Assembly: GCA_001823065.1 (NCBI GenBank)
Contig: MHTJ01000002.1
Location: forward strand, 117,532-156,319
From: Candidatus Vogelbacteria bacterium RIFOXYD1_FULL_44_32
GTDB taxonomy: Bacteria; Patescibacteriota; Minisyncoccia; Phycocordibacterales; XYD1-FULL-46-19
DNA length: 38,788 nt
Reading direction: 5' to 3'
The position numbers were made by a program, and so were the translations under genes. Below, one piece after another: positions 27,758 to 29,306 of the stretch. Position 1 is the first letter of the stretch. The number at the start of each line of letters is the position of its first letter. The notes beneath the pieces were generated by a model. That model was not told the origin of the DNA and searched no databases. It worked only from the letters and a program-made list of their open reading frames with translations.

Positions 27758-27830
27758 GCCCTGTTAGCTCAGTTGGTAGAGCAGCTCCCTTTTAAGGAGA
27801 TGGTCGCAGGTTCGACTCCTGCACGGGGCA
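27758..27830 (+). tRNA. tRNA-Lys (anticodon TTT)
   Basis: Cloverleaf: acceptor GCCCTGT/ACGGGGC, anticodon loop CTTTTAA, T-arm GCAGG-TTCGACT-CCTGC, discriminator A; CCA not encoded. Confidence 0.95.
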
Positions 27831-27892
27831 CAAAAAGGCACTTTTTGTGCCCCGTGAGCGAGACAACTGCTTGTCTCGCGTCAGGAGTCGAA
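27811..27892. repeat. 27-bp perfect inverted repeat of the tRNA-Lys 3' end, interrupted in one arm by a 25-nt hairpin
   Basis: Left arm 27811-27837; right arm 27841-27856 plus 27882-27892, split by AGCGAGACAACTGCTTGTCTCGCGT (27857-27881). Confidence 0.93.
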
Positions 27893-27931
27893 AGGACTTT
27901 CAATGTTTGTGAGCGAAGAGCAAACAAACCT

Positions 27932-27962
27932 GAAAGTCACCCGCGACCGTAGGTCGAGACTC
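27932..27962 (+). repeat. 31-bp direct repeat, copy 1 (GAAAGTCACCCGCGACCGTAGGTCGAGACTC)
   Basis: Exact match to 28142-28172; contains hairpin CGACC-gta-GGTCG. Confidence 0.95.
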
Positions 27963-28028
27963 ACTTATTGTTACTGTAAAAATATCTTGTCTCCCGTGCA
28001 GGAGTCGAACGCCGGAGCGCACGAAGTC

Positions 28029-28060
28029 GGAGGTCAGCAGAGCTGGAGGTCAGCAGAGCT
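28029..28060 (+). repeat. Tandem duplication of a 16-mer (GGAGGTCAGCAGAGCT x2)
   Basis: 28029-28044 and 28045-28060 identical. Confidence 0.95.
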
Positions 28061-28141
28061 CCGGTGCGAGGCGGTGCCTAGACCGAGACTTGGCGACGGC
28101 CCAGGATCGAGTCGAGGGAGACTCCTGCAAAAGTATCAGTC

Positions 28142-28172
28142 GAAAGTCACCCGCGACCGTAGGTCGAGACTC
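28142..28172 (+). repeat. 31-bp direct repeat, copy 2
   Basis: Identical to 27932-27962. Confidence 0.95.
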
Positions 28173-28261
28173 CTGCACCACTTCAAATCTTGCCATTTCC
28201 CAATTTAGGCATAGAATCGGTGATAGAAAAAACATCCGCATAGCGGAGGAGGATTGTAAAA

Positions 28262-28568: not shown

Positions 28569-28604
28569 GCCCGGGGCGCGTTTGCGTTCCGGGTCGTCGT
28601 TTGT
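28569..28604 (+). terminator. Probable terminator hairpin
   Basis: GCCCGGggcgcg-ttt-gcgttCCGGGTC followed by a T-rich stretch. Confidence 0.6.
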
Positions 28605-28620
28605 TACAAATATCATACTT

Positions 28621-29100
28621 GTGACTAAGAAAACTTTTTTAATTCTCTATAACATTCGTTCTGCCTACAATGTGGGGGCTATTTTTCGTACAGCGGACGC
28701 GGTAGGGATAAGTAAAATATATTTGGTGGGGGTCACACCGTGCCCGGCCGACAAGTTTGGCCGAGTAAACAGCCAAATCGCTAAAACGGCTTTGGGGGCG
28801 GAAAAGACGGTGGCTTGGGAGTATAAAAAAACGATTGCCCCACTTATGGCCAAACTAAAAAAAGATGGGGCTCAGGTGGTTGCGCTTGAGCAAGATGAAG
28901 AGGCGATTGACTATCGGAAGCTAAAACCAAAAGGTGATTGGGCACTTATTCTAGGCGAAGAAACCAAGGGCCTGTCGAAAGCTATTTTAAGTCAGTCTGA
29001 TTCGATTGTAGAAATCCCGATGAAAGGGAAGAAAGAGTCTTTAAATGTGTCGGTTGCGGCCGGGGTGGCGTTATTTCAAATAATAGGCAATAAAATTTAA
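28621..29100 (+). CDS. SpoU/TrmH family RNA methyltransferase (GTG start proposed)
   Basis: VTKKTFLILYNIRSAYNVGAIFRTADAVGISKIYLVG..., ALILGEETKGLS, VEIPMKGKKESLNVSVAAGVALF. Confidence 0.92.
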   Translation: MTKKTFLILYNIRSAYNVGAIFRTADAVGISKIYLVGVTPCPADKFGRVNSQIAKTALGAEKTVAWEYKKTIAPLMAKLKKDGAQVVALEQDEEAIDYRKLKPKGDWALILGEETKGLSKAILSQSDSIVEIPMKGKKESLNVSVAAGVALFQIIGNKI

Positions 29101-29105
29101 AAGCC

Positions 29106-29140
29106 CAAAATATTGGACACCGAGTGTCCAATATTTTTTA
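29106..29140. terminator. Bidirectional terminator-like hairpin
   Basis: AAAATATTGGACAC-cga-GTGTCCAATATTTTTT. Confidence 0.8.
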
Positions 29141-29145
29141 CAATA

Positions 29146-29306
29146 AAAAGGGCCGTCACTGGCTCGAGGACCCCTTTCACTCGCCGCTACTAGGGGATAC
29201 TTGGGATAATGTGTTTGGTCCCAGATGTATTGCCTGGGCACACCATCCTTAGTATTGTCTGCTCTTGCCAACCCAGATGGAATTCCTAAATGGGTTTGTG
29301 ACGGCC
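29146..29306 (-). ncRNA. Candidate structured ncRNA containing a 23S rRNA domain I-like hairpin
   Basis: Minus strand: promoter-like TTGCTA-N16-TATAGT (29340..29313), then GGCCGTCAC (29306-29298)...GTGACGGCC (29159-29151)-CTTTTT; contains CCCCTAGTAGCGGCGAGTGAAAGGGG (29196-29171). Confidence 0.6.

Follow-up and report, generated by a model that had tools for sequence, protein, structure and literature searches.

A minus-strand RNA unit between trmH and mutM

The window, the whole stretch of 38,788 nt that was analyzed from Candidatus Vogelbacteria bacterium RIFOXYD1_FULL_44_32 (source genome, G000), a tiny and uncultured organism, carries trmH (28582-29100) and mutM (30901-30035). A minus-strand unit (29306-29145), here termed the window RNA, lies between them and is convergent with trmH. 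It is more than 700 nt away from mutM, with an opposite-strand ORF in between. For the reasons given below, this unit of about 162 nt is very probably a real structured RNA gene.

The window RNA is predicted to fold into a closing stem (P1), two hairpins (P2 and P3) and a further hairpin (P4) that resembles helix 13 (H13; about nt 235-262 in E. coli numbering) in domain I of 23S rRNA. P1 has 9 bp and is formed by a 5′ strand at 29298-29306 (GGCCGTCAC / GGCCGUCAC) and a 3′ strand at 29151-29159 (GTGACGGCC / GUGACGGCC). After one C, it is followed by the T-run TTTTT (29145-29149). Together, P1 and the T-run look like an intrinsic terminator. P2 (29270-29296) is assigned from the fold and pairs AACCCA with UGGGUU. 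P3 (29197-29255) is a long hairpin, also assigned from the fold, and represents a variable domain. P4 (29171-29196; CCCCTAGTAGCGGCGAGTGAAAGGGG) has a CCCCU/AGGGG stem, an AGUA/GAA internal loop, the apex pairs GC/GU and a GGCGA loop; its 16-nt H13-like core is found at 29191-29176. The predicted fold has an energy of -64 kcal/mol, compared to a mean of -45.5 kcal/mol for shuffled sequences (z -4.43), and none of 200 shuffles folded as well. According to a crude count, 9-bp GC-rich closing arms that are about 90-200 nt apart and adjacent to a T-run occur at 3 distinct places in the genome, including the window RNA.

Upstream of the unit, TTGCTA (29340-29335) and TATAGT (29318-29313) are separated by 16 nt and resemble a promoter, the latter ending 6 nt before the first G. 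A preliminary description had listed this promoter-like element, the 9-bp closing stem and the CTTTTT that follows, and all three are present as described when read from the minus-strand letters. Judged from the letters, the window RNA is a candidate for an independent sRNA gene, with a promoter-like box, a conserved closing stem and a T-run.

A separate palindrome (ATATTGGACACTCGGTGTCCAATAT, 29110-29134) is located between the window RNA and trmH. It is a member of a family of dispersed inverted repeats, further copies of which lie in G000 (C3:317515, C4:61653, C4:62366, C2:63260 and others). Elsewhere in the window, the tRNA at 27758-27830 is followed by several partial, inverted or repeated pieces of its own 3′ half (27758-28200). 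Such pieces of a short repeat are also found downstream of this tRNA (GTGCCCCGTG, CAGGAGTCGA and, twice, AGTCACCCGCGACCGTAGGTCGAGACTC).

Resemblance to helix 13 of 23S rRNA

The H13 of the genome's own 23S gene (CCCCTAGTAGCGGCGAGCGAACAGGG) is intact. In the 691 of 705 kb of the genome that were scanned, the core AGTAGCGGCGAGCGAA was found at just two places when two mismatches or fewer were allowed, namely in the 23S gene (0 mismatches) and in the window RNA (1 mismatch in 16 nt). The shared apex consists of the AGUA/GAA internal loop (bulged-G, sarcin/ricin type), two apex pairs and the GGCGA loop. A sarcin/ricin motif is documented for H13 of 23S rRNA (PMC8450098). The 16-nt apex common to 23S H13 and the RNA family described below can be written as AGUAGYGGCGAGYGAA. 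The RNAs of this family differ from 23S H13 in being free-standing, 105-160 nt long and devoid of other rRNA, and in having a stem below the core that varies among the members.

There is no further similarity to rRNA. With its hairpin masked, the window RNA scored 13 against the 5′ 2.4 kb of the 23S gene (shuffles: mean 12.9, maximum 20). A second rRNA match that had been suspected, ACATCT...AAGTA, is thus attributed to chance, since the masked similarity equals that of shuffles and the homologues lack it. An assignment as LSU rRNA gene or fragment was rejected, because the window RNA has no LSU match in Rfam and no similarity to 23S beyond the hairpin.

Homologues in three other genera

When 60 relatives were searched at the DNA level, all loci that were read proved to be 23S genes. 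Therefore, a covariance model (R1) was built from the window RNA alone and its fold. R1 gave three full-length matches, all from the same family: G010:C7:59157-59046 (E 1.2e-4), G003:C10:40320-40427 (E 4.5e-4) and G009:C17:5373-5478 (E 1.8e-3). All other R1 matches were 26-nt or partial ones, and those inspected are in 23S genes. Including the window genome, the RNA is thus carried by representatives of four genera from one family (Candidatus Vogelbacteria).

Counted from the first G of P1 up to the T-run, the homologues have only 105-111 nt, the window RNA being about 50 nt longer owing to P3. All members are built alike: the closing stem P1 encloses a short hairpin (P2), the variable P3, and P4, which carries the H13-like apex. 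In the homologues, P1 is formed by GGCCAUCAC/GUGAUGGCC and is followed by a T-run, which is kept in all four members; P2 is a shorter stem of the GCCW/WGGU type. The core is arranged as GCC-(n)AGUAGUGGCGAGCGAAaaa-GGC. The stems around it differ in the three homologues, while closing stem and T-run are complete in each. Compared to shuffles, the homologues fold with z values of -3.27, -3.96 and -3.29.

The core (AGUAGUGGCGAGCGAA in the homologues) is identical among the three short members (16/16) and matches that of the window RNA at 14 of 16 positions. Both differences fall in the two apex pairs, which can still pair (G-U/C-G in the window RNA, G-C/U-G in the others). The interiors have diverged, with 28-33 identities in 38-47 aligned positions among the short members and 39-41 in about 102 when these are compared to the window RNA. 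One P1 pair differs on both sides (G-C in the window RNA, A-U in the homologues). Additional two-sided changes in the alignment affect P2 (CCA/UGG versus CCU/AGG) and the pairing adjacent to P1 (UGAG/CUCA versus UGAA/UUCA). Support from covariation is thin because the family rests on only four sequences.

With respect to sequence and pairing, all four RNAs have an H13-type sarcin/ricin hairpin at the motif level. The hairpin is part of the best predicted fold in the window RNA (at equal energy) and in G010, and costs 2.5 kcal/mol in G003 and 1.3 kcal/mol in G009 when forced. The folding energies ignore non-Watson-Crick pairs, so that the forced hairpins receive no credit for these.

Taken at the level of sequence comparison, the unit with closing stem and T-run is conserved in position and predicted fold in four genera, and the H13 apex is its most invariant internal element. 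The independent unit that the preliminary description had proposed, with its near-perfect hairpin from 23S domain I, fits well with syntenic homologues that keep the core while their interiors diverge. Since homologues occur in genomes that are independent of each other, a chimeric assembly can be ruled out.

Two further elements lack the H13 core and were therefore left out of the member count. A second RNA in G010 (G010b, G010:C7:59874-59743, L140) looks related and keeps both family ends, without having the H13 apex. In G007 (L141, from about 1036), another closing stem with T-run directly follows mutM.

Genomic neighbourhood and patchy distribution

A check of synteny in relatives had been recommended, and the RNA was indeed found in the holA-trmH-mutM neighbourhood in the three other genera. 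The neighbours in G010 and G003 are a holA-like gene, trmH (SpoU methylase) and mutM, and on the G009 contig, mutM is followed by the RNA. In all four members, the RNA is on the mutM strand. The RNAs from G003 and G009 start 22-23 nt past the mutM stop codon. The interval is variable: in the window it holds a 176-aa ORF without Pfam match, and in G010 a CopG/YafQ-like (toxin-antitoxin-like) pair is encoded on the opposite strand between the RNA and mutM. In G013, mutM is directly followed by a gene for a reverse transcriptase (RVT_1; E 7.4e-26; L142:1128-2105, minus strand).

The closest relative (G001, same genus) has 52 nt between the matching flanks, compared to 316 nt in the window genome. 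The RNA, its promoter-like site and the palindrome are thus cleanly absent from G001. Most family members have mutM, and the RNA was not found in them. The four carriers do not form a clade in the MutM tree. Their distribution needs at least 4 changes, and hence the RNA would have been lost repeatedly, or exchanged, at a single site. As judged from these genomes, the RNA is dispensable, which is odd for a core regulator of the ribosome.

Known RNA families and searches outside the family

Comparison to Rfam did not yield a family for the RNA: neither the window RNA nor its homologues had a match above any gathering cut-off, which covers 5S, SRP, RNase P, tmRNA, 6S and LOOT. Within the window, Rfam identified two tRNAs only, and around the RNA there were just chance matches far below the cut-offs. 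RNase P, tmRNA and LOOT were rejected as identities, because Rfam places RNase P, tmRNA and two LOOT RNAs elsewhere in G000. The tmRNA (L124:1076-1454) was identified by Rfam, and none was found by the tmRNA mode of ARAGORN. SRP RNA was considered as well, since Bacteria_small_SRP (RF00169) had no match at E 0.001 in the whole of G000, a genome scored as 100% complete. It was rejected because the window RNA gave no match to the model of SRP RNA and was not found in most relatives. 6S RNA was found in none of 16 genomes from the family. Two group I introns are located at L112:13708-13986 and L134:6501-6799, the latter about 135 nt from a tRNA.

LOOT RNA (RF03000) is likewise a structured sRNA, is of comparable length, and has a 3′ end that resembles a terminator. 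The window RNA differs from it in sequence and fold (LOOT: GACCUAACCC...) and does not match its model, and LOOT lacks the H13 core. The two copies in G000 are at L111:5838-5970 (C3) and L125:17419-17300 (C2). One loop (ACTCCTAATC in the first copy) seems able to pair with the 3′ arm of the terminator (GGTTAGGAGC), and this might form a pseudoknot.

A second covariance model (R2) was built from three sequences. It missed the longer RNA of the window genome itself, so that distant or very divergent members can escape it. When R2 was applied to 399 genomes from the order and 389 from the phylum, only 23S was found outside the family among the matches inspected. A search of 85,488 species genomes with one pattern gave only three matches, all in Candidatus Vogelbacteria. 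Viral contigs, phages and plasmids had no match to the RNA. The distribution of these sequences is best read as that of an RNA family specific to the Candidatus Vogelbacteria lineage.

Interpretation

The resemblance to H13 is probably functional. Both loops of the apex, GGCGA and the internal one, have been retained jointly while the rest drifts, which points to recognition of the H13 surface. Bulged-G or sarcin/ricin modules often bind proteins, and their imitation by ribosomal-protein leaders is possible (PMC7247131). A regulatory rRNA mimic had been suggested, and this fits well with a hairpin core that is kept in three other genera in which the interiors diverge. We give about an even chance to the reading that the RNA is a stand-alone, lineage-specific sRNA of Candidatus Vogelbacteria which displays an H13 apex and binds an H13-recognizing partner in trans.

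The best-surviving alternative, which we consider rather unlikely, is that of a structured sRNA in which the sarcin/ricin module is merely a stable building block. The match to H13 would then result from convergence, and the task of the RNA (as an antisense RNA or with another protein) would be unrelated to the ribosome. Unrelated RNAs, among them RNase P and the lysine riboswitch, also contain such motifs (PMC8450098). P2 and P3 vary and might carry loops for antisense pairing, and the RNA is dispensable. The match is not limited to the AGUA/GAA loop, however; it takes in both apex pairs and the complete GGCGA loop and is kept in all four members.

It is improbable that the unit is no gene of its own but the structured 3′ end of the mutM transcript, including its terminator (a 3′-UTR element or an sRNA derived from mutM). 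The close spacing to mutM on the same strand in G003 and G009 would fit, but the distance and the intervening opposite-strand ORF in the window do not. In addition, the RNA is separated from mutM by the toxin-antitoxin-like pair in G010, and mutM occurs without the RNA in most family members.

A duplicated or captured 23S fragment that now decays within an intergenic transcript is more improbable still. In the window RNA, part of the stem next to the 16-nt core takes part in the match as well (CCCCUAGUAGCGGCGAG), but 23S similarity ends with the hairpin, and the homologues, which largely refute this origin already, carry the same core on different stems, with full closing stems and T-runs. The core thus looks selected and not decaying. 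Two related proposals of the preliminary description, a relic of fragmented rRNA and an rRNA piece captured by a palindrome process, are not supported either: the 23S H13 is intact, further rRNA similarity is lacking, and in the homologues the RNA persists as a folded unit in which compensatory changes have occurred.

The RNA is hardly a ribosomal-protein leader acting in cis as an rRNA mimic, even if such mimicry is a known trait of these leaders (PMC7247131), because it ends in a T-run and no ribosomal-protein operon has it in its 5′ UTR; in the members read downstream, the next gene (trmH or another one) is convergent and does not encode a ribosomal protein. Leaders that imitate rRNA (for example L20, S15 and eL15; PMC7247131) are likewise regulatory-type RNAs with a look-alike of an rRNA protein site. 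The Vogelbacteria RNA differs in not preceding a ribosomal-protein gene and in having its own terminator-like stem, so that, unlike the leaders, it would have to act in trans.

Returning to the stand-alone sRNA with a functional H13 apex, the RNA would be transcribed from its own promoter-like site, and the transcript would end at the closing stem and U-run. The hairpin may present the same surface as H13. The RNA might then bind in trans a partner that normally recognizes domain I of the LSU, either a ribosomal protein or an assembly factor. Titration or recruitment of this partner could tune ribosome assembly or activity. We propose this decoy or recruiter mechanism tentatively. A search of the literature on binders of bacterial H13 yielded nothing decisive. 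It is tempting to speculate, with some reserve, that this is a new family of trans-acting sRNAs which mimic a universally conserved LSU hairpin, sequester a ribosomal protein or assembly factor that binds H13, and control the assembly or the idling of ribosomes in reduced (CPR) bacteria.

Mimicry of rRNA has been described in cis-acting ribosomal-protein leaders, and a stand-alone RNA that keeps an LSU hairpin would be its trans-acting form. The stand-alone form is unusual. With its 16-nt core and four natural variants, this is a small, testable RNA, and it may offer a handle on H13 recognition in bacteria whose genomes are pared down and for which few regulatory RNAs have been described.
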